A stretch of DNA of 64,000 nt from an uncultured bacterium. GTDB lineage: Bacteria; Elusimicrobiota; Elusimicrobia; Elusimicrobiales; Elusimicrobiaceae. The notes under the pieces were generated by a model that was not told the DNA's origin, did no database searches, and saw only the letters and a program-made list of their open reading frames with translations. A program made the position numbers and the translations under genes. This document shows, piece after piece, positions 1 through 16,936 of this stretch (its first letter is position 1; each line of letters starts with the position of its first letter). Location of the stretch: assembly GCA_949291545.1 (NCBI GenBank), contig CASEWB010000006.1, forward strand, positions 62,001 through 126,000. The letters are read 5' to 3'.

Positions 1-460
1 GGGCCAGTTGGTTTAAATCTCCCACTACGATAACTTGTTTATGGGCAAAAGGCCGTTCATCTTCCAAAACTTCCTGTAGGCGCTCGTTCATCTTGTCAAA
101 AATATCTGCACGCACCATAGATATTTCGTCAATTACTAAAATATCTAGGTTGCGCCATGCAGTTTTTAAAGCATTGCGGTTGGCATAATCAAGCGGTGCG
201 TGCATATCTTGGGGATTGATATGAAAGAAAGAGTGGATTGTCTGTCCGTGAATGTTCAAAGCCGCAATACCTGTAGGAGCTACAAACATCGCATTTTTAC
301 TTTTTACATTTAAATGTGAGCGAAGTCCTTTCAAAAAAGTGGATTTACCAGTTCCAGGACGGCCATGGATAAACACATTGTCTCCATGGTTAATGTGATA
401 AATGGCGTTTTTAATTTCAGGTGTCATTTCCAATTCGGAAGAAATAATTTGCTGTGTCAT
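1..460 (-). CDS. PIF1-like helicase / RecD-type ATPase, N-terminal part (runs off the window)
   Basis: The first 153 residues are visible; the gene continues beyond base 1. A P-loop (GRPGTGKST, about residues 33-41) is followed by the typical PIF1/RecD segment APTGIAALNIHGQTIHSFF and a Walker B-like IDEISM. This pattern is characteristic of PIF1-family 5'-3' DNA helicases and of related ATPases that capture DNA ends. The start at 460 is preceded by AAGGAG at good spacing. It lies 10 bp after a NYN-domain gene and is probably its operon partner. The exact family cannot be settled without the C-terminal helicase motifs. Confidence 0.8.
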   Translation of the reverse strand, partial: MTQQIISSELEMTPEIKNAIYHINHGDNVFIHGRPGTGKSTFLKGLRSHLNVKSKNAMFVAPTGIAALNIHGQTIHSFFHINPQDMHAPLDYANRNALKTAWRNLDILVIDEISMVRADIFDKMNERLQEVLEDERPFAHKQVIVVGDLNQLA

Positions 461-470
461 AATAATCTCC

Positions 471-866
471 TTAGAAATTGATATAGGGCCAAAAACCCTT
501 TAAAAAAGAATATGTGTATTGCACATCGGCACCACAAGCGCGTGCTACTTGGATAATTTCATTATCTGCCGTAACCACGCAAACATCGCGGCCATATTGT
601 TGGGTATGCTCATAAATGGAATTGATGATGAGTTTATCGGCTTTATGGCGAGCCGAGAAGAACACACTCATTCCATGCGGGCGGGAAATGGCGCGTTTAT
701 AACCATCAAAATAACATTCAATCTCTCTGGAAGAGTCCGTATTAAAACTGGACACATAGTCAACCAATTGATCTGACAGCCGGGCTTCTAGGTCAAAATT
801 TGGTTTACCTTGCAGGCCATAGGCCGAACGAACGACATTGGATCCATCAATGATAAGACTTGTCAT
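471..866 (-). CDS. NYN-domain (YacP-like) putative RNase
   Basis: A 131-aa protein built almost entirely of one PIN-like NYN domain. An early acidic strand (SLIIDGSNVVRSAYG) is followed by CYFDGYKR, an internal DKLI helix and VVTADNEI near the C-terminus, which together supply the acidic residues expected of the metal site. NYN proteins are usually RNases acting on structured RNA or tRNA. The start at 866 is chosen over two upstream in-frame starts because AAGGAG lies 6 nt before it. It is probably co-transcribed with the PIF1-like gene just downstream. The role is inferred from the fold only. Confidence 0.75.
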   Translation of the reverse strand: MTSLIIDGSNVVRSAYGLQGKPNFDLEARLSDQLVDYVSSFNTDSSREIECYFDGYKRAISRPHGMSVFFSARHKADKLIINSIYEHTQQYGRDVCVVTADNEIIQVARACGADVQYTYSFLKGFWPYINF

Positions 867-1470
867 ATACATCTCCTTAGTTGTACCCCTTGGGTAAGGG
901 TGGTACGTAAGATATGCCAACTATGGGATTACTCCCTACCGGGTGTGGCCCCCTACACTATAGGCATAAATCTGGCATTTCCTGACATTGTATTCGTAAA
1001 ATCTACCTACTAGACACCAAGCAGTGGAATAAAATATGCTTGGCCGGAGCCCTACCGGAGCACTTTATAGCACGGCTCTCGGCTCTTATTACGGGTCATT
1101 CTCTCTTTGCAATTACACGCATATAACAGGAATTTTAGGCTTCCGATTAAACGGTTGTATACTCAATATGACAGGTTCCGTAAAACCCGCTGTTAACTGA
1201 AACTTCGGGGCAGTTAACAAACTCAGAGTTTCCTTTCCCAGCAGAAAGTTAATTACACATCCGGTTAATCTTCTTACTCACTAAATATGAAGATACCGCA
1301 TAACTACAAATACCCAACTAGGGATAATAAGCAGGGACATTTTCAAGTCGCCCTTCTGTAACGGACCGCCCTTGGTGCAACGAACCTTGGAGCAACCGTT
1401 GCCTAGTAACTTACTACGAAACGCATATTGAGCAAAAGCCCTATCTCTTGCCTTCCACTGCGCTTCCTTT
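867..1470 (-). other. Gene-free 600-nt stretch with many hairpins; candidate structured RNA or leader
   Basis: No convincing reading frame occurs here on either strand. The segment holds several short inverted repeats in a row: a perfect 7-bp stem at 1017-1023/1037-1043, CCGG pairs at 1044-1058, a perfect 9-bp stem at 1191-1199/1211-1219, an A/T hairpin at 1219-1231, and a 5-bp stem at 1233-1248. The NYN gene's motif/promoter-like element lies at 970-987. I compared it by eye with tmRNA, RNase P RNA and group I/II intron cores and saw none of their diagnostic sequences. It could be a long untranslated RNA or simply an eroded region. Confidence 0.4.
970..987 (-). promoter_or_regulatory. Island motif copy 1 (TGTCAGGAAATGCCAGAT), upstream of the NYN gene
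   Basis: This 18-bp sequence, read on the minus strand, recurs with few changes at 2769-2786, 2849-2865 and 7376-7393. On the plus strand it reads as two direct 10-bp units (TCTGGCATTT CCTGACATTG), so a bound protein would meet both on the same DNA face. A -10-like TATAGT follows 7 bp downstream in the direction of the NYN gene. It is either an operator or the upstream half of an unusual promoter. Confidence 0.5.
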
Positions 1471-1812
1471 CTACATATACTGATCAATCAAAGCCGCTAT
1501 TTCCGGATGTCCGTACCACATGGCATGATATTGGGCATTAAATCCTTTGTTGTCTGTTAAACGTGGATTTGCACCGGCATCCAATAACAATTTCACAATC
1601 CGGATATGACCTCTTTGGGCTGCCACCATTAAAGGGGTAAGGCCATTTGGCTCGTGCATATTTACATCTGCATTGGTGCGCAATAACTCGCGCACTTTAT
1701 ATTCATCTCCAGATAATGCATAATCAAGTAGTTTCATGTTGCAATAGGCAACGCGAGATGTATAGATAAACCATATGACGATTAAAACGACTATTACTAA
1801 CAAGAAAAACAT
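1471..1812 (-). CDS. Membrane-anchored ankyrin-repeat protein
   Basis: A 113-aa protein. Residues 1-18 form one hydrophobic membrane segment, followed by ankyrin repeats from about residue 27: one repeat (LLDYALSGDEYKVRELL), a canonical repeat with NGLTPLMVAAQRGHIRIVKLLLDAGA, and a partial third repeat. Ankyrin repeats bind protein partners, so this is likely an adaptor or inhibitor at the membrane. The start at 1812 has a strong GGAGG 7-8 nt upstream, within the 10-nt gap after the DUF805 gene, so the two are translated from one mRNA. The partner is unknown; the neighbouring DUF805 protein is the obvious candidate. Confidence 0.8.
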   Translation of the reverse strand: MFFLLVIVVLIVIWFIYTSRVAYCNMKLLDYALSGDEYKVRELLRTNADVNMHEPNGLTPLMVAAQRGHIRIVKLLLDAGANPRLTDNKGFNAQYHAMWYGHPEIAALIDQYM

Positions 1813-1822
1813 AGACGCCTCC

Positions 1823-2731
1823 TCATAACTCTTTAAATTTATCCATAATGCGTTTAATACTAATCAACGCTTGGGATAAGCTCATAACTAGTGTCATACT
1901 TTCAAAGAAATCCAAAAACTCACCCATATCTTCCGCCGCTAGCTCTTTTTTACCTGTTATTACATCGGTCATATCTTTCCCGCTAGCTTTTCCACGGGCT
2001 TTCTGCAAAAAATGGCTTAGCGCAAAGGCCCGTGTACCCACTGTAGCACCGCTTTTACTGATGAGTTCCTTGCAAGCCATATAGACGGGGATACGTGCAT
2101 GATATTCATCAACCGCTTTTCCAAACATTTCTTTATTAGCGCTGTTTTTCAAAAGTACCTGTCCCAACATGCGGTCCGAAATTTGTTCGCGATGCTCTCT
2201 AAAATTCACAAATATTAAATGGTCTGTTTCTATTAAGAGCAAGTAGCACATCTCCAATTTTTCCTGTAAACTCTGCAGTGACTTATCCTGCCCCGTAATC
2301 AGCAAAATGAATTCTGCCAAGCCATCTCCGAGAGCTTGCCACCTATCACCAGAAGAAACGGGTGCTTGCTCATATTCTTGATTTTCATTACGAGTGGAAG
2401 AAATTTTGGGCGCTCTTGGGTCGGGGCCATACTTATTGCTCCCATGCGTTCCGCCTACTACTAACATCAGGAAAAATAAAATCATCCCCACGAACGGAAT
2501 TAGTGATAAAAATATAAGCCCACCGGACCAACCGATATCATGCAAACGCTTCATATAACTGGGGATTAACAGGAGTTGCAATAGCAACAGTACAACATTG
2601 CCTCCTTCTCCGCCCATCATGCCAATTAGCAATGTCCCCGCAATAACAGACAAAACAAATAAAAACAGGAATTGTCTGCGGCAAATACGTCCGTTCCAAT
2701 CAAAAAATTTACTCAAAGCATCAATAAACAT
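1823..2731 (-). CDS. DUF805 membrane protein with a long cytosolic helical domain
   Basis: A 302-aa protein. Residues 1-115 match DUF805: it opens with FFDWNGRICRRQFLF, has about three to four hydrophobic segments and the typical RLHDIGWSG and GSNKYGPDP motifs. Residues about 130-302 form a soluble, mostly helical extension I do not recognise. Plain DUF805 proteins are usually about 120 aa, so the extension is the unusual part. Start: AAAGGAG lies 6 nt upstream of 2731. A copy of the island motif lies 38 bp upstream. DUF805 proteins have no settled function; in phage-defence-like gene sets small membrane proteins of this kind can be effectors, but that is inference. Confidence 0.75.
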   Translation of the reverse strand: MFIDALSKFFDWNGRICRRQFLFLFVLSVIAGTLLIGMMGGEGGNVVLLLLQLLLIPSYMKRLHDIGWSGGLIFLSLIPFVGMILFFLMLVVGGTHGSNKYGPDPRAPKISSTRNENQEYEQAPVSSGDRWQALGDGLAEFILLITGQDKSLQSLQEKLEMCYLLLIETDHLIFVNFREHREQISDRMLGQVLLKNSANKEMFGKAVDEYHARIPVYMACKELISKSGATVGTRAFALSHFLQKARGKASGKDMTDVITGKKELAAEDMGEFLDFFESMTLVMSLSQALISIKRIMDKFKEL

Positions 2732-2768
2732 AATTTTCTCCTTTAGTACCTATCTACCTTAAGCACGG

Positions 2769-2786
2769 ATCTGGCATTTTCTGACA
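2769..2786 (-). promoter_or_regulatory. Island motif copy 2 (TGTCAGAAAATGCCAGAT), upstream of the DUF805 gene
   Basis: Second copy of the shared motif, 38 bp before the DUF805 start and pointing toward it. After GCCAGAT the two copies remain partly alike (TTTATGCCTATAGT at copy 1, CCGTGCTTAAGGT here), as expected if the motif sits at a fixed distance from a -10 element. Confidence 0.5.
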
Positions 2787-2823
2787 TTTCTATTCACAAG
2801 AGAAGCAAAATCGTATAAAATAC

Positions 2824-2850
2824 GAAAGCCCCTCACGATAAGGGGCTTTC
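2824..2850 (-). terminator. Terminator-like hairpin after the kinase gene
   Basis: GAAAGCCCC and GGGGCTTTC form a perfect 9-bp stem with an 8-nt loop. On the minus strand it is followed by a T-rich but interrupted tail and a second A/T hairpin (2811-2825), so it likely ends kinase-operon transcripts; efficiency is uncertain. Confidence 0.55.
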
Positions 2851-2865
2851 TGGCATTTTATGACA
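2849..2865 (-). promoter_or_regulatory. Island motif copy 3 (TGTCATAAAATGCCAGA), between kinase stop and terminator
   Basis: Third motif copy, in the same orientation as copies 1 and 2. It overlaps the upstream edge of the terminator hairpin stem, which is an odd place for a promoter, so it may act as an operator or binding site rather than a start site. Confidence 0.4.
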
Positions 2866-2880
2866 TTGTATTAAAGGAAT

Positions 2881-5466
2881 TTATACGATTTTGCGACCTA
2901 GGAGATTATTGACTATGTCCTGCTGAAAAGCCAAGCCTGAATCAAAACGAAGCATTAGGTACCAAAAGAAATCTTTAAAACAACTAACATAGAAAAAAGA
3001 TTGACGGAAAGATCTAATAGCAGATTTTAAACGCCAAACATACAAAACTCTATTTCGCGGGGACTTTTCTATTGCTAAAGAAAAATTCTTAAAACTATTA
3101 GCATACTCCCTGGTCTGATATTGGCAGAATGCTAATTTTTGATACATATACTTTGCCGCCCCGAATTCTTCAGAAAAATGGAAGGATATCTTTGAAGATG
3201 GCAGGAACTCCCTGTTAAAGCAATCAGTAAGCTGCTTAATTTCTTCATCAATTTTTTCCAAATCTGTACTAGTAGGGAGAGGTAAATTTTCTTGATAGTA
3301 CTTCTTGGCCCATTTCCATTCGTCTAAATCGTATAACAAATTAGCAATATCTAACTGATTGCTCAGAGAAGCAGGCAGAAGCATTGTGTACGCTAACAAT
3401 GCGATACGTCCTACATGGGCGGCATTATATCGTTCCGTATTAGGATCATCTTTTGTTCCTCGTAGCAGTCTGCCTCTCATCGTTTTTCCTTCTTTGGCAA
3501 ATTTTCGGTACATTTCTTCTATTTCCCCAAAGACTTCCTGAGCATGCTTTTTGTCTTCCAGGGCTATATAGCATAGCGCTTTCTGTAAAAGTATGTCATA
3601 AGAATATATGCTATTTTTTACCACCTCTTTATCGACTGAAACAATATGTTCAAGCATAGTTTTATAATCATTCTTCAAGGAAGCCAATTTTATGCGATAC
3701 CATAAGATAATGTCTCTGGGAAATTTATCCGAGCATTTTATTAGATACGATAAAGCTTCTTCTTGCTGAGAAGATGTGTATGATCCTGGATTATTTACAA
3801 CATTTTTATAAAATTCAGTCGAATCTTCCAAAACATACTTCCTATCTTGTGAATAAAATAAAGGCCAATAAACCAGTAACCAGGCATATAACGAGGCATA
3901 TATTTCTTTTACGGTATAATAAAATTTTCCTTTATTGATTAGCTCCTTTATTGTGGAAGAAAAAGATTTTTTACGCGCATACATTAAAAGAAATAATGGG
4001 GCACAGACAATGAGAAATGGTATTGCCAGCCCAAGCACGTCATATCCAACCCTTATTACACCATCTAATTTTTGAACCAAACCAGGCATAGAAGGATGCG
4101 AATCAGCAGTTCGGGAGAGCAGTACGGTACAAACACTATAGATTGGTAAGATATAGTATGGTATCAAGTATTCCGGGTGTTCATTTTCATAATCTCTGTA
4201 TTTTGAAAAGAGAAAAATTATTCCCAACAAAACAGCAACGGGCAATAAAGGGAAAAAAGTATCAAACGGTTTATATAAAATTTTGATAGGGGAAAAAAAT
4301 AATGATAAAACTGATATCACAAAGAACCAAACAATAAGAAGTAGGATAAAACGTATCGCACATAACCTGCTAGGAGAATACATCGCGCCTCTACATTTTT
4401 CTCTAAGCAAATGTGCCTCTTTTAATGACTTATCTTTCTGAATAGCGAGTGTTAGAAATGTAAATGCATGCTTATAGTGAGTTAACAAATAATATCCTTG
4501 TCCCCTTAAAAACAATTGCTGGGCAGACATATCCTTATAATTTTTAGGATTAATATCGAAGATTTTACGAAGGAAAAGAAAGGGTTTTGTACTAGTATCT
4601 TCTTTGTAAGGAATATATATGGGGAAAGTCTGTTTGATATACTTTTCTATTTTATCATCTATTTCTTCAAAATTCTTGTACCTTTTTCTCGGGTCTTCAG
4701 CTAGGCATTTTTGAATAATCCCTCCGCAACAGGAATCCTCAACTTTCGACGCGTCTATTTGATATAACTTGTCTTCAGTGCCTGCCGTCTGATAAGGGAA
4801 TTGTCCCCTGTTTAGTAGTTGATAAAGCAAAATCCCGAAAGAATAAATATCGCCTCGAACCGTAGGTTTTGCATTTTGCAAAGAATATTCCGGTGGAATA
4901 TATCCCGGGGTGCCACCTTTGTTTTCGATGCTAGATAGTCCAAAATCCGTAATTTTAATATTATTATCTGGAGAAATTAGGATATTACTTGGTTTAATAT
5001 CTCTATGAACCTCTATTCCACAATCGTTTAAAAAAATCATACCTTTACAAATTTGCGAAGCCCATATCAGCGCCTGTTGTCTATCGACGATTTTTATAGC
5101 AGATTCCAACGTTTCTCCTTTTACAGAATCTTCCAAAGAATAGGGTTGTTTTCCAACATAATCCATGAGGATATAGTAAGTGTCCCCATCATTAATAATC
5201 GTGCGAGTATAAGTCACATACGGATGACACGGAAGTGAAAGACAAAGCAATGCTTCTTTTCTAAATTTCTCTTCATCATCATATTTTTTAAATGTCTTTA
5301 ATACACAAAACTTGTTATCACGTTTATCTCGGCAGAAAAATACGTCTCCCATGCCGCCTTCACGGGCTTTGTCTGATATTTCAAAAAATTCAGACAAAAC
5401 ATCCCCGCGCTTCATAAACAAGGGCTGTGATTTTTCTTTTTGTTGTATATATTGAGTTTTAGGCAT
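2881..5466 (-). CDS. Membrane Ser/Thr protein kinase (Hanks type) with TPR-like C-terminal region
   Basis: An 861-aa protein. The N-terminal 300 residues form a complete, apparently active kinase: glycine loop at 34-44, ATP-binding lysine K57 (CVLKTF), catalytic HRDIKPSN at 154-161, DFG at 174-176, activation segment GTPGYIPPE at 185-193 and DIYSFG at 206-211. About four transmembrane segments follow between residues 370 and 510. The rest (about 515-861) is soluble and helical with TPR-like pairs (for example FKNFSLAIEKSPRNRVLY). Membrane kinases of this class sense a signal and phosphorylate FHA-type or other partners. The gene starts 3 nt after the stop of the 619-aa upstream gene, so both are one operon. 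Confidence 0.9.
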   Translation of the reverse strand: MPKTQYIQQKEKSQPLFMKRGDVLSEFFEISDKAREGGMGDVFFCRDKRDNKFCVLKTFKKYDDEEKFRKEALLCLSLPCHPYVTYTRTIINDGDTYYILMDYVGKQPYSLEDSVKGETLESAIKIVDRQQALIWASQICKGMIFLNDCGIEVHRDIKPSNILISPDNNIKITDFGLSSIENKGGTPGYIPPEYSLQNAKPTVRGDIYSFGILLYQLLNRGQFPYQTAGTEDKLYQIDASKVEDSCCGGIIQKCLAEDPRKRYKNFEEIDDKIEKYIKQTFPIYIPYKEDTSTKPFLFLRKIFDINPKNYKDMSAQQLFLRGQGYYLLTHYKHAFTFLTLAIQKDKSLKEAHLLREKCRGAMYSPSRLCAIRFILLLIVWFFVISVLSLFFSPIKILYKPFDTFFPLLPVAVLLGIIFLFSKYRDYENEHPEYLIPYYILPIYSVCTVLLSRTADSHPSMPGLVQKLDGVIRVGYDVLGLAIPFLIVCAPLFLLMYARKKSFSSTIKELINKGKFYYTVKEIYASLYAWLLVYWPLFYSQDRKYVLEDSTEFYKNVVNNPGSYTSSQQEEALSYLIKCSDKFPRDIILWYRIKLASLKNDYKTMLEHIVSVDKEVVKNSIYSYDILLQKALCYIALEDKKHAQEVFGEIEEMYRKFAKEGKTMRGRLLRGTKDDPNTERYNAAHVGRIALLAYTMLLPASLSNQLDIANLLYDLDEWKWAKKYYQENLPLPTSTDLEKIDEEIKQLTDCFNREFLPSSKISFHFSEEFGAAKYMYQKLAFCQYQTREYANSFKNFSLAIEKSPRNRVLYVWRLKSAIRSFRQSFFYVSCFKDFFWYLMLRFDSGLAFQQDIVNNLLGRKIV

Positions 5467-5469
5467 AAT

Positions 5470-7329
5470 TTACTCTACAAATGATTTCTCGGCAAAGCTC
5501 TTCATAATAGTTTTGCTGCGGCGTTGCGCCTTTACTTCTATGTACCACCCTATCGGCAATCGTCCTAACAATGGATGTTTTACTCCCTGTAATAGTTGCC
5601 CTGCAAACAATACCGATCCTTCCCAAAACACTCCGATCCCGGCAACGTCCGATAGCCAAATATCACGCGTTAGCGGTTCAAAACTTTCCGCAAAATCAAT
5701 ATTTAGCTCTCCGGCAGTGCCAATCTGCCTGTCTAATAAATTAAACAACTTATCTTGGGACAAAAACCACAAATTTCCTTCTTGTTCTTTTTTAGGGTGC
5801 ACCAACCAATCTTGCCTGTTTGCCTGATATTCAAGTGTTAACATATCGCGAGACATAGCCAGGCCATCCGGTTGGCACACATTAATTTGCGGAATATCCA
5901 ACGGGTCCTCTTCATCTAACCGCCCAATAGCAATTTTAGGGGAACGCAACGCATTCAAATGATATTCATTTTCTTTGCCACATGCACAATATACAGATAC
6001 AACCGTCCCCATAGTTGAATTTGCAGAAGGAGTAATGGTGTCATTAGACATCAACAAAGCTTGGGCCTTTTCAAACTCACAATTGCGCTTATATACCAAT
6101 GCCAAATAGTATTTGTGCAACTCACACGGAATTTTTTGATATCGTTCTTTGTAGTAAGATACCAGTTGTTTGGGAGCAAGGGCATGGGTTGGCTCCAGCA
6201 CCGGCTCGTGTTTTGGATAAATAGGGCATGAAATTAACTCTTTTAGCCGTCCATAACGGTAATCCATCACTTTAAAAGTTTTTTCTTCCGCCAACTGACA
6301 TTTCGGACAATGCTTTCTGTGTTCGATATATTCTTCGAGCAATTTATTATCCGTCGGTTGTGATTCTCTAATAATTTGATTCCTTACCAACAACCAAATG
6401 GCCTCTGTATATTGAGAACAGCCTTTAAATACATCCGGCAAAACAATATGCATTTCATCTCGGGCACTGGTGGCTTGCTGTGGTAACTCCTGCAAAGCAA
6501 CTTGTAATGGGGCCCGCAAAATCGATTCCTCTATGCCCTCTTTAAACTCAGCGAACTCGCCTTCCAAAGAATCAAAAAATGAGTTAATAATCTGCGCTAA
6601 TTTCTTTCTTTCTCGGCTAGAGTTGGCGGTGGCAAATTTCGCCTTTTTATAACGTTTTTGATATTCTTGTCGCTGAACAGATTGATCCGATAATGTATAT
6701 TTCTGACCCCATAAATGATCTAAAAAAGCCCAAAACGGATATAGTTTCTCCAGTATACGCTTTTTTTCTTCATAGGACAGTTGTGCTCTGTACTGTTTGG
6801 TTACCTGTGGGATTTGCTCACGCGCTTCTTTTGGCATGTCGGAAGGGGCCTTGGCGGCATTGACGGCAATAAAATTCTTCGTAGATAAGAAAAATACGAC
6901 AAACTTGTTTATGATATCATCGGGTAGTTGATTTATAAACTTTTCCAACTTGTCTGAAAATGAGTTTATATCTTTTGCGCTTTCGTCAGACGGCCAAGAA
7001 TCGTTGCTATCCTTCGCTTCTTGTTGGATTTCTTGCAACTCATTTTCCCGACATTTTTGGGCAGGTTGTTCCCAATCGGCTCCTTGCCCTATCTGTAACT
7101 TGCAAAACTGTTTAAATTGCTCTTGATGTTCCGCAATTTCCCCGTGTTGTTCCCAAAACGGCTCTAGCACAATTTTCCCATCCATCCATAGATTAAAAAA
7201 CCGGGAAGCATCCTCGTTGCTATCATCCACGCAAGGAAACACCGCAAAAGCTACATATTCCAACAAATCTTGTTCTGCCTGTTTGCGGTTATCTAAAAAA
7301 TCTTGTTTCGTTGGTATATTAAAGGGCAT
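5470..7329 (-). CDS. Large protein of unknown function with weak FHA-like segment, partner of the kinase
   Basis: A 619-aa soluble protein. I do not recognise it as a whole. Its middle has a possible zinc-binding CPKC (about residue 345) and a CAC (about 455). Residues about 460-540 resemble an FHA fold: IAIGR, then MSRDM, then a basic WLVHP strand, similar in order to the GR...SR.H pattern, although the usual histidine is replaced. FHA domains read phosphothreonine, which would suit a kinase encoded 3 nt downstream. A C-terminal region (about 565-619) is rich in beta strands (GIGVFWEGSVLFAG). Start: GGAG 5 nt upstream. FHA assignment is a hypothesis. Confidence 0.6.
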   Translation of the reverse strand: MPFNIPTKQDFLDNRKQAEQDLLEYVAFAVFPCVDDSNEDASRFFNLWMDGKIVLEPFWEQHGEIAEHQEQFKQFCKLQIGQGADWEQPAQKCRENELQEIQQEAKDSNDSWPSDESAKDINSFSDKLEKFINQLPDDIINKFVVFFLSTKNFIAVNAAKAPSDMPKEAREQIPQVTKQYRAQLSYEEKKRILEKLYPFWAFLDHLWGQKYTLSDQSVQRQEYQKRYKKAKFATANSSRERKKLAQIINSFFDSLEGEFAEFKEGIEESILRAPLQVALQELPQQATSARDEMHIVLPDVFKGCSQYTEAIWLLVRNQIIRESQPTDNKLLEEYIEHRKHCPKCQLAEEKTFKVMDYRYGRLKELISCPIYPKHEPVLEPTHALAPKQLVSYYKERYQKIPCELHKYYLALVYKRNCEFEKAQALLMSNDTITPSANSTMGTVVSVYCACGKENEYHLNALRSPKIAIGRLDEEDPLDIPQINVCQPDGLAMSRDMLTLEYQANRQDWLVHPKKEQEGNLWFLSQDKLFNLLDRQIGTAGELNIDFAESFEPLTRDIWLSDVAGIGVFWEGSVLFAGQLLQGVKHPLLGRLPIGWYIEVKAQRRSKTIMKSFAEKSFVE

Positions 7330-7375
7330 AATGGCTCCACATTAAAATCATTGTACTTTATTTCCGCTGCTAATT

Positions 7376-7393
7376 TGTCAAAAAATGCCAGAT
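7376..7393 (+). promoter_or_regulatory. Island motif copy 4 (TGTCAAAAAATGCCAGAT), between divergent operons
   Basis: Fourth copy, pointing rightward toward the nuclease lipoprotein and CBASS genes, 42 bp before the lipoprotein start. An AT-rich -10-like ATATATT follows. On the opposite strand the same bases contain TTGACA heading toward the 619-aa gene, so one site could control both operons. Confidence 0.5.
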
Positions 7394-7434
7394 TGGCAAT
7401 ATATTTAGAAATGGTATGGATTTAAGGAGACCTT

Positions 7435-7875
7435 ATGGCTATAGGTAAAATATCACTTATACTAACCTGTGTACTGTTCTTGGACAGCTGTGCACATGTA
7501 AATGCAAGCCAACAAAAAGATATGGCAAATTTTGACAATGTATCCTTGATATCTGTATATGATGGGGATACATTCTACATAGATATTCCTTCTTGCGATA
7601 TTGATGTTTTCTGCAAACATATTTCCATTCGCATTCGAGGAATGGATTGCCCTGAAATGAAAGGTAGTACCGCAGAAACAAAAGCCCGAGCCAAACAAGC
7701 CAAGGAGTTTAGTGAACGCTTTCTTAAAAGCGGCAAAATTCTACTGTACAATTGTGGACGAGATAAGTATTTCCGGCTACTTTGCGATGTGGGAGTTAAC
7801 GATAAAAGCTTAGGTGCAGAGTTAATTAAGTCCGGACATGCTGTTTCTTATGATGGCGGAACAAAAAATCCTTAA
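7435..7875 (+). CDS. Thermonuclease (SNase)-fold lipoprotein
   Basis: A 146-aa protein with a lipoprotein signal peptide (LDSC lipobox, Cys at about 19) and one staphylococcal-nuclease-like domain. Visible family features are VYDGDTFY (metal-binding Asp region), SIRIRGMDCPEM (catalytic Arg strand) and the closing AELIKSGHAVSY helix. SNase-fold enzymes cut DNA or RNA in a calcium-dependent way. Here it would be tethered outside the cytoplasm, in the periplasm or on the outer membrane. The start is well supported by AAGGAG. It is about 105 bp before the CBASS operon and on the same strand; whether it is functionally tied to CBASS is unproven. Confidence 0.85.
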   Translation: MAIGKISLILTCVLFLDSCAHVNASQQKDMANFDNVSLISVYDGDTFYIDIPSCDIDVFCKHISIRIRGMDCPEMKGSTAETKARAKQAKEFSERFLKSGKILLYNCGRDKYFRLLCDVGVNDKSLGAELIKSGHAVSYDGGTKNP

Positions 7876-7980
7876 AATTTAATTAAAACTCAATTTGTGG
7901 ATATTATTTCAAAATTAGCACTCTTTTGTTTTATTTGATAAAAATAAAATAATTTGATATGATTTTAAAGAAGAAAAGAT

Positions 7981-8940
7981 ATGTCGAGTACAAAACCTTT
8001 TAAAATTTTATCAATAGATGGGGGCGGAATTAAAGGAGCCTTTGTAGCATCCCTCTTGGCCGACCTTGAGAAACAATATTGTCACTCTGGGGGGAATGTA
8101 GCATCTTATTTCGATTTGATTGTAGGAACTTCCACCGGAGGGATCCTAGCATTAGGCCTTGGCTTGGGGATGCCAGCTGCAGATATTTTAAACTTTTATC
8201 AAAAATACGGACCCCAAATTTTTCCCCAAACAATCTGTCTTCCAAAAAAATTATTAAAATGGATTCTTAAAGGCAAATATGAGCGTGCTCCTTTAGAAGA
8301 TGCGCTAAAAAATGTATTTGGAAATAGAAAATTAGGGGAAGCTATAACCCGTCTTGTAATTCCTTCTTTTAATTTACAAACCGGCGAGGTACACTTATAC
8401 AAAACAGCACATCATGAACGCTTGCGGGGGGATTACAAAGAACAGGCCTATGCCGTTGCCCTCGCCACTTCAGCAGCCCCAACGTACTTCCCGACATATT
8501 TTTTGAGAAATATTCCTCTGATTGATGGTGGAATATGGGCAAATGATCCGGCATTAGTAGCCATTACTGAAGCCCAAACGTTACTGGGGCAAGATGTTAA
8601 AAATATATCTATGTTAAGTATTGGTTGTACACAAGAACCACTCAATATTTCATCCTCTACAAAAAGTGCATTCGGTTGGGCTCTTCATATATCAGATCTA
8701 TTTACACGAGCACAAATGTCCGCCGCCTCAAGTTCCGCACAATTATTATTATCAGAACGCTATATTCGCATATCTCCTACTGTACCTAACGGAAAATTTA
8801 GTCTCGATGGAAGCCAGTGCCTCAATGAACTCGTTGCCTTAGGAGAAACGGAAGCAAGAAAAGCTTCTCCCAAAGTAAAACATTTTTTTGAAACTAAAAT
8901 AGACCCTTTTGAACCATTTTATAGAAGTGAGGAAAAATAA
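7981..8940 (+). CDS. capV: CBASS effector CapV, patatin-like phospholipase
   Basis: A 319-aa patatin-fold lipase. The oxyanion glycines are in SIDGGGIKGAF (11-21), the nucleophile serine is S51 in GTSTGG, and the dyad aspartate is D182 in IDGGIWANDP. In CBASS such effectors are switched on by a cyclic nucleotide and degrade the inner membrane, killing the infected cell before phage release. The family assignment is strengthened by context: the CD-NTase gene overlaps its stop codon (TAATG) and an E2-like gene follows. Start ATG at 7981 is preceded by an AAGAAG-type site. All catalytic residues are present, so the effector looks functional. Confidence 0.92.
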   Translation: MSSTKPFKILSIDGGGIKGAFVASLLADLEKQYCHSGGNVASYFDLIVGTSTGGILALGLGLGMPAADILNFYQKYGPQIFPQTICLPKKLLKWILKGKYERAPLEDALKNVFGNRKLGEAITRLVIPSFNLQTGEVHLYKTAHHERLRGDYKEQAYAVALATSAAPTYFPTYFLRNIPLIDGGIWANDPALVAITEAQTLLGQDVKNISMLSIGCTQEPLNISSSTKSAFGWALHISDLFTRAQMSAASSSAQLLLSERYIRISPTVPNGKFSLDGSQCLNELVALGETEARKASPKVKHFFETKIDPFEPFYRSEEK

Positions 8941-10037
8941 TGTTAAATCTAGAAAATTTATTACACACTATTTGCCAGAACCTTCAAATAGCCCAACCGC
9001 AATATACTTTAGCCAGAGAAAAATATGAAGAGATACAAAGGGAACTTCAACGAGTTGGTAGCCCTTTTTCAACTTATAATTTAGAAATCTTTCCCCAAGG
9101 ATCTTTTGCTATACAAACGACCGTAAAACCGCTCTCACGAGAAGAATACGATGTCGATTTGGTTTGTTTGCTTAAAGATGGGGCAACGATTTCCCTCGAT
9201 CCCATGAATTTACTTACCGAATTGAAAAGCTTTCTAATTAAACTCTATGGAATAAATAATGTTGAATTAAAAAAACGTTGTGTTTGTGTAAATTTTTCGC
9301 GACAGTTTCATTTGGATATCTTGCCCGCCATCCCAGACCGCCTGCGTGGAGAAGATAATTTGCTAATCCCAGATCGAGAAATTAAGACATGGATATCTTC
9401 AAACCCTCGTGGATACCGAAAATGGTTCTTAGAACAATGTGAACGCCGTGTATTAACATCCTCCAAAAACGAACCTTTGCCCAAGCGTCCTTCTGCCTAT
9501 ACACAGAGTCCTTTGCAAAACACAGTACAACTATTTAAACGCTGGAGGGATGTAGCTTTTAAAGGAATGAATGAAAATTGGCAACCGCGATCTATTGTAT
9601 TAACTACTCTTTTAGCCAATGCATATCAAGGAGAAAATACGATTCTTACGGCTTTTTCTTCAGCACTCAATGATATTAAGCAAAAAGTTGATAGTCACAC
9701 ATCGCCATTAGCCGTTCTCAACCCGCTTGATAGCCAAGAATGCTTCAGCGAAAAATGGTATGAAGATCCGGAGGGATATTTTCATTTTCGTTCCCAAATT
9801 GCTGCATTAGCGCAAGATTTTATATCGTTACAAAAAACTACTTCGCTATCCAATCAAAAAATGATTTTAAGTCGTCTATTTGGAGAACCGATAGTAAATC
9901 AAGCTCTAACCACCGTAGCCAAGGCAATTGCCTCTCCAGAAACAGCAAAAAATCTCCGTGTTACTAATACGGGGAAATTAACAACAGCTATGGCAAACAC
10001 CTTAGCCGTACCCAAACATACTTTTTATGGTAATTAA
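8940..10037 (+). CDS. CBASS cGAS/DncV-like nucleotidyltransferase (CD-NTase)
   Basis: A 365-aa nucleotidyltransferase of the SMODS/CD-NTase type. The signature is complete: GS at 54-55 in FPQGSFAIQT, DVD at 71-73 (the two metal ligands), and a third aspartate at 126 in FHLDILPA. The enzyme would sense infection and make a cyclic di- or trinucleotide that activates CapV. The clade and the exact product cannot be told from sequence reading alone. It overlaps capV by one base and the E2-like gene by 11 bases, a tight translationally coupled operon. The C-terminus ends in a flexible tail (TLAVPKHTFYGN), which in type II systems is the point of conjugation by Cap2. Confidence 0.92.
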   Translation: MLNLENLLHTICQNLQIAQPQYTLAREKYEEIQRELQRVGSPFSTYNLEIFPQGSFAIQTTVKPLSREEYDVDLVCLLKDGATISLDPMNLLTELKSFLIKLYGINNVELKKRCVCVNFSRQFHLDILPAIPDRLRGEDNLLIPDREIKTWISSNPRGYRKWFLEQCERRVLTSSKNEPLPKRPSAYTQSPLQNTVQLFKRWRDVAFKGMNENWQPRSIVLTTLLANAYQGENTILTAFSSALNDIKQKVDSHTSPLAVLNPLDSQECFSEKWYEDPEGYFHFRSQIAALAQDFISLQKTTSLSNQKMILSRLFGEPIVNQALTTVAKAIASPETAKNLRVTNTGKLTTAMANTLAVPKHTFYGN

Positions 10038-10482
10038 ATTCTGGAAAAATCCGTCAAATAAGAAACCACGACCGATTCAATGGCAAATAACCGAAATGAA
10101 ACGCTGTTTCCCTTCTTTTACCGTAATTAACAAAAGCGCCCATTTTGTGATCTGGCAGGGTATCTTACAACCTGATTCTTCCATGAACAGTTATACCATT
10201 GAATTGGAATATAAGCGAGGAGAACGCCCGAAGGTTTTTGTTATTAATCCAAAATTAGAAGATTTACCTGAAAAACCCATCCCCCATCTATATCCTAAAG
10301 ATGCTTTAAACAAAGAACGAAATTTATGTTTATACTTTCCCGCTGCCAACGAATTCACACAACAAGATTTTATAGCTCACACAATTGTTCCTTGGACATC
10401 GCACTGGCTATTTTGTTATGAAATATGGCGCTTAACTGGCCAATGGGTGGGTGGCGGAAAACATCCTCCAAAAGGCAAATAA
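10027..10482 (+). CDS. CBASS stand-alone E2-like protein (short type II Cap2)
   Basis: A 151-aa protein with the bacterial E2-like pattern: an HLYP strand at 87-90, the active-site cysteine C101 in NLCLYFP, and then the W...HW..YE.W..TG.W helix region to residue 143. Full-length Cap2 is an E1-E2 fusion of about 600 aa with a JAB protease partner; here neither E1 nor JAB is present, which matches the described short type II CBASS architecture in which a lone E2 modifies and primes the CD-NTase. It starts inside the CD-NTase gene (11-nt overlap). No further gene follows on this strand, so the operon is three genes long. Confidence 0.85.
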   Translation: MVIKFWKNPSNKKPRPIQWQITEMKRCFPSFTVINKSAHFVIWQGILQPDSSMNSYTIELEYKRGERPKVFVINPKLEDLPEKPIPHLYPKDALNKERNLCLYFPAANEFTQQDFIAHTIVPWTSHWLFCYEIWRLTGQWVGGGKHPPKGK

Positions 10483-10543
10483 ATATTGCAATCGCTTAAC
10501 CTTCCTAGCATACAGCTTTTAAAAATTTACTTAAAAATGAGTA

Positions 10544-10945
10544 TTTTTCCCTGCTTGTTCCCTGTTCCGAATTTTAGGGAATTTGTTAGATTTGTATCGG
10601 GTGTTAGTACGGGAAACCTTTAAAATTTCAAATAAATTCTTTATTTTTCCCTGTATTTACCCTGTTTAGCAGGGAAATAGCATCTCTCGTCTGTTTGTCC
10701 CCTGTTTAAAAGCCATTTTCCTCGCTTTATCGTCGCTTTGGGAGTTAGCATTCTCGCCGCTTTCTCCCCGCTTCAAAATTTATCAAAAAGTACCATTTTC
10801 AGCCGCTTTTCTGTCGCTTTAGCAAAACAGAAAAACTAGCACTTTTTGCCGCTTCATTGCCGCTTTGCTGAAAAATTAGAAATGCCATTTTCAACCGCTT
10901 TTCTACCGCTTTGGAAAGAAAAAAATGCCATTTTTTGCCTGTTTG
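10544..10945. repeat. Degenerate tandem repeat array, about 45-bp period
   Basis: About eight imperfect units sit between the CBASS operon and the island border. The right part uses a unit of CCATTTTC, then CCGCTTTTCT, then CGCTTT, with unit starts near 10712, 10747, 10792, 10838, 10883 and 10926, so the last steps are 43-46 bp. The left part has the same layout but uses pairs of CCCTG / CCCTGTT about 11 bp apart (10544-10566, 10644-10667, 10689-10707). Within each unit the two core heptamers are one helical turn apart. Units are too divergent and lack spacers of CRISPR type. Function unknown. Confidence 0.65.
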
Positions 10946-10989
10946 AAAAATCAGCATAATGCTGCCCAAACTACACCCACCGTATAAAT

Positions 10990-11018: not shown

Positions 11019-11193
11019 ATTATGCGGTTGGAGCGGCACAAACTGCTTTGTGCCGCGTAGGGATTTGAAAGGCGCAGCGATGTTTTGGTTTGCGCCTGCT
11101 AGTGCGCAAGGCCAAAACCGCGAGCCCGGTCTGCAGGAAAATCCCGTCAGGAATTTTACCGGAAGGCGAATCCCTCCCTCTCCATATAAATAT
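11019..11193. other. Hairpin-dense border segment with tRNA-Ser-like 3' end
   Basis: No gene here. Features are a perfect 10-bp hairpin with CTGC loop (11033-11056), a stem GGCGCA/TGCGCC (11071-11096), a large imperfect hairpin around 11085-11117, and a stretch CGAATCCCTCCCTCTCC (11167-11183) that looks like the T-arm plus acceptor 3' end of a serine tRNA. No complete tRNA is present. Together with the flanking twin terminators it marks the likely right edge of the accessory island, possibly an old attachment site. Confidence 0.4.
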
Positions 11194-11218
11194 AAAACCC
11201 CGCTGGCGCGGGGTTTTA
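11194..11218. terminator. Bidirectional terminator, right copy of a pair
   Basis: AAAACCCCGC, TGGC loop, GCGGGGTTTT. It repeats the hairpin at 10990-11018 with only the loop and a few flanking bases changed. Confidence 0.7.
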
Positions 11219-11324
11219 TATTTATTGGCTCAAACGGCACAAACAATCGGTTCCGCCGGACCCATATATTAGACAGGTCTTTAGGCCCTGTCGAAGCGTT
11301 TTACAAAACGCTACAATAAAATAA

Positions 11325-14422: not shown

Positions 14423-15355
14423 TTATAGGTTGTATTTATCCAGCACTACATGCGAGGCGGTTTTGTGGGTAAACTTCGTTTGTGGCCCCACAATAACGTC
14501 CTGCAGCGTGCACTCCGTCAACTCCGCTTCATACGCTACCGACACATAAGGCCCCAACACGCAATTCCGGGCGCTTACGCCCTCGGCAATCCAACACGGC
14601 GGTATAATTTTATTTTGTTTTTCCACTTCAGCAGGCACTTGGTGGTGGCGGTCCAAAAGCAACCGGTTCGTCTGCAGCAACACTTCCACCGTGCCGCAAT
14701 CAAACCAGTCGTCCATTTCCACGGGCACAATTTCCACCCCGCGGCCAAGCAAGACCGACAAGGCGTCTGTCAGTTGGATTTCATTTTTAACCGTTTTGCC
14801 GGAGCGGATTACTTCTTCCAACGCGTCAAATAACTGGGCAGACTCCAAAAATGCATACGCGCCGATAATAGCCAGATTGGATTTGGGCTTTTCGGGCTTT
14901 TCTTCAAACGAAACAATCCGCCCGTTTTTCATTTCCACAATGCCAAAGCGAGACGGATCCTGCACGGTGCGGATACCGATAGCATTTTTCCCGCCAAACA
15001 CCAACGGTTTCAAATCGCCGTCTACAATCGTATCCCCCAGCAAAACAAAGCACGGACCCGCCACATACGGTTTAGCCAGGTAAACAGCGTGGCCCAAACC
15101 CTTAGGCTCGGGCTGTTCCACAAACGTTACGTCCAAGTGCGGGTACTGGGATTGCACAAACTCCACAATCGCTTCTTTTTTATACCCGACAATAAACACA
15201 ACTTTTTTTATTCCCAAACTTTCCACTTGGTCCAAGATATGGCCCAAAATGGGTTTGCCCGCCACCGTAATCATAGTTTTAGGCATATTGGCCGTATACG
15301 GCAACAGCCGTACGCCCTTGCCGGCGGCGGGAATAATGGCGGTAAATGGCTTCAT
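14423..15355 (-). CDS. Sugar-1-phosphate nucleotidylyltransferase
   Basis: 310 aa. The N-terminal Rossmann-like domain has IIPAAGKGVRLLPYT and MPKTMITVAGKP, the signature of glucose-1-phosphate thymidylyl/uridylyltransferases, then a LLGDT metal site and a FEEKP strand. After about residue 240 a short left-handed beta-helix-like tail is present. The enzyme would make an NDP-sugar for cell-envelope glycans or storage polysaccharide; the nucleotide and sugar cannot be fixed from sequence. It follows the amylomaltase gene by 9 bp in a likely operon. Confidence 0.85.
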   Translation of the reverse strand: MKPFTAIIPAAGKGVRLLPYTANMPKTMITVAGKPILGHILDQVESLGIKKVVFIVGYKKEAIVEFVQSQYPHLDVTFVEQPEPKGLGHAVYLAKPYVAGPCFVLLGDTIVDGDLKPLVFGGKNAIGIRTVQDPSRFGIVEMKNGRIVSFEEKPEKPKSNLAIIGAYAFLESAQLFDALEEVIRSGKTVKNEIQLTDALSVLLGRGVEIVPVEMDDWFDCGTVEVLLQTNRLLLDRHHQVPAEVEKQNKIIPPCWIAEGVSARNCVLGPYVSVAYEAELTECTLQDVIVGPQTKFTHKTASHVVLDKYNL

Positions 15356-15364
15356 ACAAGGGCC

Positions 15365-16936
15365 TTAGGCGCGGCCCGTCTCCTTTAAAAGTTCGCGGTA
15401 CATAGCCAGCTGTTCGCGGTAGACTTCGGCCGCTTGGCTAGGCGTATATTCGCTGCGGTAAGTCCAATTTTCTTCGCCCACGGTGCCGGGGGTGTTCACC
15501 CGGTCCAGGGTGCCAATGATGTCTTGCCAGGAGAAAAGCGTAATGGCGGAATTGGAGCCGAGCACGCGGCGCAAAATGGCGCGCTGCGTATCGGCGGTAA
15601 ACGGCACATTGCCGTCTGTTTTTTGGGCGGAAATCATTTCCCAGATATTGGCGCGTTCGCGTTGGTCCATCGTTTCCCACCAGCCGCGCACGGTTTCGGT
15701 GTCGTGCGTAGAAGTAGTGGCCAACGATACCTGCGGATAGTTGCGCGGCTCGCGGTAGTAGCCATTGTCTTCGCGTTCCCAACGCAATACTTTATACCCG
15801 GGAATGCGCAAATCCACCAACATACGGCGTACATAATTGGGAATGACCCCCAAGTCCTCGCCCACAGGCAGCTTGCCTTTGGCTTCGTCAAGCACCATAC
15901 GCAAAAAGTTATACCCGCGGTCGATTTGGTTTTGTTCGCCCTGAATATCGAACGAACCCACCTCGTCGCCCGGTGCAAACACATAGGTGCGGAAAAACCC
16001 CACCAAATGGTCCAGGCGGAAAATGTCATACAGTTCCGTCACACGGCGGATTTTGCGCCGCCACAATTCCAAATTATGGGAGTGCTGGTATACCCAATCG
16101 TACGCGGGCAAGCCCCAGCGCTGGCCGCCCTTGGAAAATTGGTCCGCCGGAGCGCCGATTTCCCACCCCAGGCGGTAGTTGGCGCGTTCGGACCACACTT
16201 CGGCACTGTCCAAATTGGTTCCGAAGGGAATGTCCCCAAAAATGAGCACGCCCTTTTCCTGCGCGAGCACTTTGGCCCGGCGCAGTTGCTGGTCCAAAAT
16301 CCATTGCATATAAGCAAAGTAATTGACGTATTCGCGATATTGGGTTTCAAAAGTATTGACGGCGTTTTTATCAAAATTGCGCAAGCCCTCGGGCCACTGG
16401 GTCCAGGTTTGCCATTTGTAAAATTCTTTAATTGCCCGAAAGACTGCATACCCGCGCAGCCAGCCGGACTGAGCCGCCGTGTACGCCTCGAAGGCTTGAA
16501 AGCGGGGCGTGTTGGCGGAAGCCTCCGTCTGCAAGAAATGCTGGTATCCAAACCACAACGCCTTAAGCTTAGCTTGCTTTACCGCAAAGAACGGCGCTTT
16601 TTTGGCGTGGTGCCAATCCCGGATTTGGGGCGCGAGGGAAGTGATAAACTCCTGTGCGCGGGAACTGGCGGCAATATCGGGCACGTCGGAAATATCGGTG
16701 TAGACGGGATCCGTAGCAAAAGCGCTTAACGCCGAATAAGGGCAGGTTATGCCGGGGGCGGTTTCCTGTAAAGGAAGGATTTGGATAATTCTAGCGCCTT
16801 GGGAAGCTAAAAATTCCGTCCATTGCCGCAGGGAAGAAAAATCCCCCACGCCCCAATCGGCGTCGGTTTTCATAGCGGCAAGCGGGAGCAAAATGCCGTT
16901 TAAACGGCTGGAAAGCACTTGGTCTTGAATGGTCAT
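15365..16936 (-). CDS. malQ: 4-alpha-glucanotransferase (amylomaltase)
   Basis: 523 aa, the usual GH77 length. Recognisable parts are LPLAAMKTDADWGVGDF and ILPLQETAPG near the start, GDIPFGTNLDSAEVW, the nucleophile region DIFRLDHLVGFFRTY, the acid/base region LPVGEDLGVIP and TSTHDTETVRGWW. GH77 enzymes transfer glucan segments between maltodextrins, feeding glycogen and maltose metabolism in the cytosol. It begins 6 bp after the RidA gene stop and is followed by a nucleotidylyltransferase. Confidence 0.95.
   Translation of the reverse strand: MTIQDQVLSSRLNGILLPLAAMKTDADWGVGDFSSLRQWTEFLASQGARIIQILPLQETAPGITCPYSALSAFATDPVYTDISDVPDIAASSRAQEFITSLAPQIRDWHHAKKAPFFAVKQAKLKALWFGYQHFLQTEASANTPRFQAFEAYTAAQSGWLRGYAVFRAIKEFYKWQTWTQWPEGLRNFDKNAVNTFETQYREYVNYFAYMQWILDQQLRRAKVLAQEKGVLIFGDIPFGTNLDSAEVWSERANYRLGWEIGAPADQFSKGGQRWGLPAYDWVYQHSHNLELWRRKIRRVTELYDIFRLDHLVGFFRTYVFAPGDEVGSFDIQGEQNQIDRGYNFLRMVLDEAKGKLPVGEDLGVIPNYVRRMLVDLRIPGYKVLRWEREDNGYYREPRNYPQVSLATTSTHDTETVRGWWETMDQRERANIWEMISAQKTDGNVPFTADTQRAILRRVLGSNSAITLFSWQDIIGTLDRVNTPGTVGEENWTYRSEYTPSQAAEVYREQLAMYRELLKETGRA

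Follow-up and report, generated by a model that had tools for sequence, protein, structure and literature searches.

Protein kinases occur in several described defence systems. PD-T4-6 is a single-gene defence kinase, MADS includes companion mad genes besides its kinase Mad6, and Mokosh and BREX contain the kinases MkoA and PglW. To our knowledge, none of these four systems has the partner protein, the NYN nuclease and the RNA that accompany the kinase described here. RNA-based precedents come from elsewhere. For AbiF, the accessible part of PMC12373285 describes that a non-coding RNA can neutralise a toxin and that the RNA lies beside the toxin gene on mobile DNA. ROOL and GOLLD are large RNAs of phages and prophages, often near tRNA islands (accessible part of PMC12286853), and a CRISPR-associated NYN protein is a ribonuclease in an immune RNA pathway (accessible part of PMC11346440). 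Here we compare with these systems a kinase-centred gene set from an uncultured Elusimicrobiaceae bacterium. It lies in the first 7,329 nucleotides (nt) of a 64,000-nt stretch (contig CASEWB010000006.1 of GCA_949291545.1; G000:C6:62001-126000 in our numbering), hereafter the window, to which plain coordinates refer; G000 is a 1.55-Mb draft genome of 11 contigs. An initial annotation, made from the letters of the window, had proposed six leftward genes beside a CBASS operon as an undescribed defence or stress module.

The six open reading frames (ORFs) are all present, with matches to the Pkinase, DUF805, Ank_2, NYN_YacP and PIF1 profiles. In addition, what had been taken for a gap before the NYN gene encodes a structured RNA (within 867-1470, minus strand). 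The components are listed below; aa, amino acids; bp, base pairs.

1..460, minus strand: PIF1-like helicase, N-terminal 153 aa in the window and 446 aa in the genome, continuing to the left (PF05970, 3.8e-28)
471..866, minus strand: NYN_YacP-type nuclease, 131 aa, ATG start (PF05991, 7.1e-12)
867..1020, minus strand: conserved leader between RNA core and NYN gene, with local hairpins (alignment and pair counts)
1021..1461, minus strand: structured RNA core, 441 nt, its ends closed by a 9-bp helix
1471..1812, minus strand: small membrane ankyrin protein, optional (Ank_2, 6.6e-15)
1823..2731, minus strand: DUF805 protein with C-terminal extension (PF05656, 4.6e-16)
2850-2824, minus strand: terminator-like hairpin after the kinase gene, 12 pairs, T-rich tail
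2881..5466, minus strand: Hanks-type kinase, 861 aa, variable C-terminal part, 3 membrane segments (PF00069, 1.8e-34)
5470..7329, minus strand: 619-aa partner protein, conserved C-terminal domain from about M441

The hairpin at 2850-2824 splits the set into two units. Unit A consists of the 619-aa partner and the kinase, and unit B of the rest, in the order DUF805, ankyrin (where present), structured RNA, NYN, PIF1-like and lipoprotein genes, followed by DUF2924 and recombinase genes. This hairpin is the strongest of 18 terminator-like sites in the region; shuffled sequences gave 10.1, and weak sites of this kind therefore mean little. In two other islands (G048 and G008), two opposite-strand genes sit where the hairpin lies. 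The NYN protein scores 46.1 bits against a Pfam gathering score of 24.6, which places it in the NYN_YacP family as a predicted nuclease, and its start is most likely the ATG at 866 rather than the TTG at 920, because AAGGAGA precedes the former and the resulting length of 131 aa is the same in relatives. The PIF1-like protein also matches the Dda-like helicase of PHROG (5.5e-77). The motifs GGMG, H[RK]DIK and DFG are intact in all seven kinase copies that have the N-terminal domain, so that the assignment as a Hanks-type Ser/Thr kinase holds, while the four membrane segments first ascribed to it are reduced to three by hydropathy.

The catalytic domain of the kinase matches Mad6 (2.9e-45), PD-T4-6 (4.8e-33) and MkoA (3.2e-25), and the matches to defence-kinase profiles, PglW included, are confined to about aa 20-295. 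The scores missed the NCBIfam equivalog cut-offs of Mad6 (79.8 of 460 bits) and PglW (49.9 of 990 bits). Among the 10 window proteins scanned for companion mad genes, the only similarity besides the kinase was a weak one of the PIF1 ATPase to mad8 (2.1e-07). Unlike the single-gene PD-T4-6, the present kinase has conserved partners and a variable C-terminus. The locus resembles AbiF and type III RNA-toxin systems in having a non-coding RNA beside a putative toxin gene on mobile DNA; it differs in that NYN replaces Abi_2 (a Pfam scan of the gene after the RNA found NYN_YacP and no Abi_2), that kinase and helicase are partners, and that the RNA core is 441 to about 570 nt long and also occurs without the NYN protein of this element. 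With ROOL, GOLLD and OLE it shares a large, elaborately folded RNA of unknown function, but it has no credible Rfam match. The CRISPR-associated protein is likewise an NYN nuclease, whereas here a single structured RNA precedes the NYN gene. As analogies, the AbiF and CRISPR-NYN precedents do not prove the present case. In the literature searched, mostly without subscription papers, we recognized no description of the gene set or of the RNA.

The six genes are cargo of a tRNA-associated serine-recombinase integrative island of about 16 kb. The AT-rich character noted in the initial annotation is evident, with a GC content of 0.37-0.42 in window 1-10000 against 0.45-0.54 elsewhere in the window. 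About 3.2 kb left of the window, and missed in that annotation, lies a recombinase gene (G000:C6:57138-58751) whose Resolvase (4.3e-38) and Recombinase (7.3e-13) domains mark the element as one of the large-serine-recombinase type. Leftward of the window come the remaining part of PIF1, a lipoprotein-like protein, a protein of 287 aa, DUF2924, the recombinase and finally tRNA-Ser(TGA), which carries CCGTATTTTAG at its 3′ end. The remaining six module islands adjoin tRNA-Asp(GTC), with CCGTATTTTAG at the tRNA end in 6/6. The two genes flanking the G000 island are adjacent in G005, G064 and G047, which supports insertion despite a different tRNA placement, tRNA-Ser lying on the far side of one of the two. 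Resolvase and Recombinase domains, DUF2924, sites at tRNA 3′ ends and variable defence cargo are shared with described cargo-carrying large-serine-recombinase islands; the same literature yielded no recognized description of an island family with CCGTATTTTAG beside tRNA-Asp or tRNA-Ser.

We determined how often the components occur together among 340 genomes of the phylum, 66 of them from the genus. The partner was found in ten of the 340, namely in seven islands, G016, G041 and G321, the last from another family. The kinase gene directly follows the partner in 8/9 testable loci (six islands, G016 and G321); the partner genes of G037 and G058 are cut by contig ends and were both counted as present, and G058 was left out of the adjacency count. 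NYN of the element type (>90 bits; other NYN matches reach at most 31.7 bits) is present in eight genus genomes, all among the nine with the partner (hypergeometric 1.6e-9, a value that ignores shared descent). Its identity is 76-100% across the seven islands and about 40% in G016. For element-type PIF1 the seven islands agree at 88-100% identity, against about 46-48% for G016, and a separate PIF1 copy of about 36-40% identity occurs in 60 of the 66 genomes (61 matched, G058 through its island copy only). Partner, NYN and PIF1 of the element type are thus all present in the seven islands and in G016, rather than scattered separately among the relatives. In G016, NYN, partner, kinase, a TPR gene and PIF1 lie on one strand in another order, with NYN, kinase and PIF1 38-48% identical to those of the islands. 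ORFs of the 20-kb neighbourhood there gave no match to the recombinase, DUF2924, DUF805 or lipoprotein of the islands, and more distant recombinases occur elsewhere in that genome. Around a second PIF1 of G034 (309 bits), the 20 kb read showed no match to NYN, kinase or partner.

The other components first grouped with the set were less constant. The small ankyrin gene is found in 3/7 islands, and DUF805 has the extended form in 2/6 readable islands and the short form in 4/6; the extension and the ankyrin gene are therefore optional parts.

Counting matches of at least 80% identity over nearly the full length, and leaving out pieces in G035, G023 and G003, the same recombinase occurs in 18 of the 66 genus genomes, seven with the module and 11 without it, the module search having taken in all 66; four of the 11 neighbourhoods (G019, G062, G044 and G038) are short, at 4.4-10.5 kb. 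Because G016 keeps the set with no such recombinase beside it, and because 11/66 genomes have the recombinase without the set, the set is a transferable module, neither housekeeping nor chance neighbours. A housekeeping role was ruled out, since the partner occurs in 9/150 relatives although kinase-domain matches occur in 148/150.

The kinase differs strongly between islands beyond its start. It has 861 aa and three membrane segments in G000, 447 aa and two segments in G048 and G008, 1032 aa and no segment in G029, 1011 aa and one weak segment in G037, and 388 aa with TPRs and no segment in G016; in G040 it is split into two frames. Between G000 and G029, aa 1-60 are 93% identical, with an identity at 4-fold sites of 0.61, and beyond this the amino acid identity drops to 16-53%, although the silent-site contrast is slight (0.61 versus 0.57 in the next segment). 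In the partner the pattern is reversed: aa 1-420 are 32-62% identical between G000 and G029 (4-fold sites 0.10-0.44), and aa 421-619 are 87-98% identical (0.73-0.86). The comparison of G000 with G048 gives a similar picture, with one exception in the variable part at aa 121-180 (71%, 0.64). Low silent-site identity in the divergent partner parts points to segment exchange. G048 and G029 partners differ mainly in aa 61-180. Divergent kinase C-termini and partner parts around a conserved central block are as would be expected of exchangeable sensors. Such C-termini behind a conserved partner and kinase-start block are natural chimaeras for asking what the sensor recognizes.

The partner itself looks like a fusion of two linked proteins. 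In G016 and G321 a separate ORF encodes its C-terminal domain and begins, by alignment, near M441 of the fused form; in G016 the stop and start of the two ORFs overlap, and the C-terminal one has a later frame break. An alignment of seven sequences shows invariant H337, C341 and C344 (HxxxCxxC), and the G321 partner gave a zf-HC2 match at E=0.035, below the Pfam cut-off. The 619-aa protein had no match in Pfam, PHROG, NCBIfam or PADLOC. It had been described as FHA-like, with a phospho-reader role. This description was not borne out: the C-terminal part had no Pfam FHA match at E<=10, and hhalign gave a profile-profile probability of 0.8% against 8 FHA domains of the same order (100% for a split-set positive control), a value from a thin alignment that does not disprove a remote FHA fold. 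AlphaFold models were too poor to judge the fold (pLDDT 45.6 for the whole partner and 41.7 for the C-terminal domain); Foldseek with the low-confidence whole-partner model found nothing at E<=0.001, and a sequence search of the PDB gave a single match at E=0.85, which was disregarded. A phage or plasmid origin was not supported: there was no tblastn match to the partner in phages or plasmids, and of 66 pattern stretches in viral contigs 0 were confirmed.

The region before the NYN gene (867-1470, minus strand) holds no ORF of at least 80 aa besides the over-long NYN start and has a mean column identity of 80% in the seven islands. RNAalifold on the seven-island alignment gave 157 pairs, 22 of them with double changes. 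With two further copies, from G015 and G004, the RNA is found in nine genomes, and the core measures 441-442 nt in three, 538-540 nt in five and about 570 nt in G015 with its continuation. Over the nine copies, 88.7% of cells are paired (shuffled 84.0, slid 36-45), 48 pairs are doubly changed (shuffled 26.2, slid 6-15) and 96 cells carry double changes (shuffled 37.8), although further pair types are not raised (123 versus 120.3). Related sequences can exceed such shuffles without structure; the slid controls and a cross-test are the stronger evidence. With a structure derived from G008, G029, G040 and G037 only, standard pairs make up 81% for the G000 group, 80% for G015 and 68% for G004, whereas slid controls reach 33-47%. 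Changed pairs remain standard in 58%, 59% and 48%, respectively (shuffled means 38-40%, maxima 53-55%), so that the G004 value by itself does not top the shuffle maximum. In the reverse direction, with the structure from the G000 group, the values are 78% for G029 and 70% for G015, and those for changed pairs, 54% and 43%, do not exceed the shuffle maxima. The 9-pair closing helix is formed in 8/8 sequences with letters there, three of its pairs being doubly changed, and the G015 continuation, which was not used for the structure, reads the complementary 3′ strand of this helix (judged by eye). Single copies fold mildly better than shuffles (z -1.9 and -2.8). When a model for a 122-nt part was made from the nine copies, it found 9/340 phylum genomes, those same nine. 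Three copies searched against 4227 Rfam families gave only matches far below the gathering scores, and a ROOL model found 0/9 genomes, with its control silent. There was no blastn match in phages or plasmids, one exact 22-mer was not found in viral contigs, and the G016 genome had no match. Its covariation makes the RNA a candidate for a new family of large bacterial RNAs. Whatever its function, it lies on mobile islands near tRNA genes, a setting like that given for ROOL and GOLLD in the accessible part of PMC12286853.

The two further copies lie away from the module, in L181 (G015) at about 7620-8205 on the minus strand and in L182 (G004) at about 9028-9640 on the plus strand. The G015 copy is near tRNA-Leu, and near the G004 copy lies an SNase that shares 63% identity with the island SNase. 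An ORF closely follows the RNA in each setting: NYN in the islands, a 160-aa ORF of unknown kind in G004 and, in G015, a small ORF after a ribosome-binding-like AAGGAGG. The RNA may therefore be a large regulatory leader.

Taken with its company and architecture, the leading explanation of the set is a phage-defence module, to which we give a probability of roughly 0.4. The module islands also hold CBASS, Fic, AbiL-type ATPase, Dsr1-like SIR2, ThsB-TIR and caspase-domain genes. The exchangeable kinase C-terminus, in a membrane-bound or TPR form, would sense infection or another insult, and the kinase would act on the 619-aa partner. The partner might then switch on the NYN nuclease and the helicase as outputs, so that RNA is attacked and the infected cell is halted in an abortive defence; in the island version, the structured RNA may control, scaffold or be processed by NYN. 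In this complete form, a new mobile immune module running from exchangeable-sensor kinase through partner to NYN and PIF1, with the large RNA as scaffold, decoy, antitoxin or leader, the proposal is tentative and more doubtful than a defence role as such. If true, a single transferable anti-phage system would combine kinase signalling with an RNA-cutting enzyme and a large structured RNA.

Several observations weigh against a phage-defence module of this kind. The defence companions belong to the alternative cargo and could be no more than markers of the island; by eye, some genes in other islands of the family look biosynthetic. The defence-kinase models match the catalytic domain only. Seven of the loci belong to one mobile lineage, so that co-occurrence is not independent, and the G041 partner is 30% identical and is not followed by a kinase gene. 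The hairpin, together with the two opposite-strand genes of G048 and G008, separates the units, which may lack co-regulation. The silent-site case for exchange draws on 3-24 sites in each segment, and for the kinase it is weak. Finally, G016 gave no RNA match, and in G015 and G004 the RNA is present without element-type NYN.

Among the alternatives, the module could serve the island itself, kinase and partner sensing the host state and controlling maintenance, excision or replication; PIF1, NYN and RNA would then take part in replication or copy control. Unit B shares its strand with DUF2924 and the recombinase in those islands that were read through, and the tandem left-end arms described below suggest repeated integration. 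Since the same recombinase occurs in 11 genomes that lack the module, and since no recombinase match lies beside the module of G016, we regard this explanation as possible but improbable. That the set is a general kinase system for envelope or stress signalling, an accessory cargo unrelated to phage, is unlikely: the membrane forms of the kinase, the DUF805, ankyrin and lipoprotein neighbours, and the non-defence-looking cargo of some family islands agree with it, but G016 retains the nuclease and helicase partners, and conflict is a better fit for the swapping sensor parts and the defence companions. Still less probable is an AbiF-like toxin unit of RNA and NYN, controlled by the RNA and only adjoining the kinase pair. 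The position of the RNA directly before the NYN ribosome-binding site speaks for it, as does the AbiF precedent in the accessible part of PMC12373285, whereas the RNA without element-type NYN in G015 and G004, where it precedes another ORF, fits a general leader better than a dedicated antitoxin, and G016 has NYN without the RNA. Chance neighbours are very improbable, for although the islands of this family carry many unrelated genes, the same set recurs in 7 islands with different neighbours and at two kinds of tRNA site, and in another order in G016.

To the right of the module, the remaining features of the island are as follows.

7435..7875, plus strand: SNase-like nuclease, a divergent neighbour kept with the module (PF00565, 8.8e-10)
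7981..10482, plus strand: CBASS set (patatin effector, SMODS cyclase, E2), alternative cargo outside the module
10546..10985, no strand: right-end block common to several islands, ending at CCGTAT (10980)
11167..11183, plus strand: 17-bp repeat of the tRNA-Ser 3′ end, an alternative right end

The CBASS operon does adjoin the set, and its cyclase, effector and E2 together make it a CBASS system. It is one of several alternative cargoes and not a part of the module. Its slot is bounded by SNase and the right end, and in G040 and G058 SNase directly joins the right-end block; this side of the island holds a Fic gene in G048 and G029 and an AbiL-type ATPase in G008. No convincing regulatory motif shared with CBASS emerged: a comparison of the two upstream regions, made without a shuffle control, listed only AT-rich inverted pairs, one of 22 nt (77%) and one of 17 nt (76%). 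Similar short AT-rich stretches flank the CBASS cargo (7866-7882 and 10614-10630), and in G040 and G058 the aligned parts overlap at these stretches, joining SNase to the right-end block.

Further cargo is found left of the module. In L092 (G008; 3770-5157), a ThsB-like TIR protein adjoins a caspase-domain protein between recombinase and tRNA-Asp, and in L048 (G037; 5218-9178) and L088 (G058; 6869-10853), a Dsr1-like SIR2 with a 1007-1009-aa partner lies left of the recombinase; within the limits used, neither Pfam nor PADLOC matched the partner in G037. Among the genomes with the recombinase and without the module, G043 has AbiE, five (G030, G038, G054, G033 and G005) have a Fic gene 92-97% identical to that of G048, and G052 and G064 have biosynthesis-like genes, judged by eye. 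A kinase-like label near the G062 recombinase was dropped, as it reflects TPR repeats.

The right end of the G000 island has two candidates, CCGTAT at 10980 and the 17-bp tRNA repeat at 11167. A weak Leu_leader match at 11160-11221 (26.4 bits; gathering 50) overlaps the tRNA-Ser remnant and is probably due to chance. Left-end arms of about 165 bp with CCGTATTTTAG recur past the right ends of islands in a tandem-array-like manner (G029, G048, G040 and G058), and in G029 (L046) two of them are only about 775 bp apart. In addition, tRNA-Asp(GTC) beside a MurB-like gene (label by eye) is an integration hotspot with very varied cargo, including AbiE, Fic and biosynthesis-like genes. The loci are given below.

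L046 (G029), L044 (G048) 14756-15495, right ends of L047 (G040) and L051 (G058): left-end arm recurrences
L088, L090-L092, L154, L156-L158, L162, L164, L165: tRNA-Asp(GTC) hotspot loci

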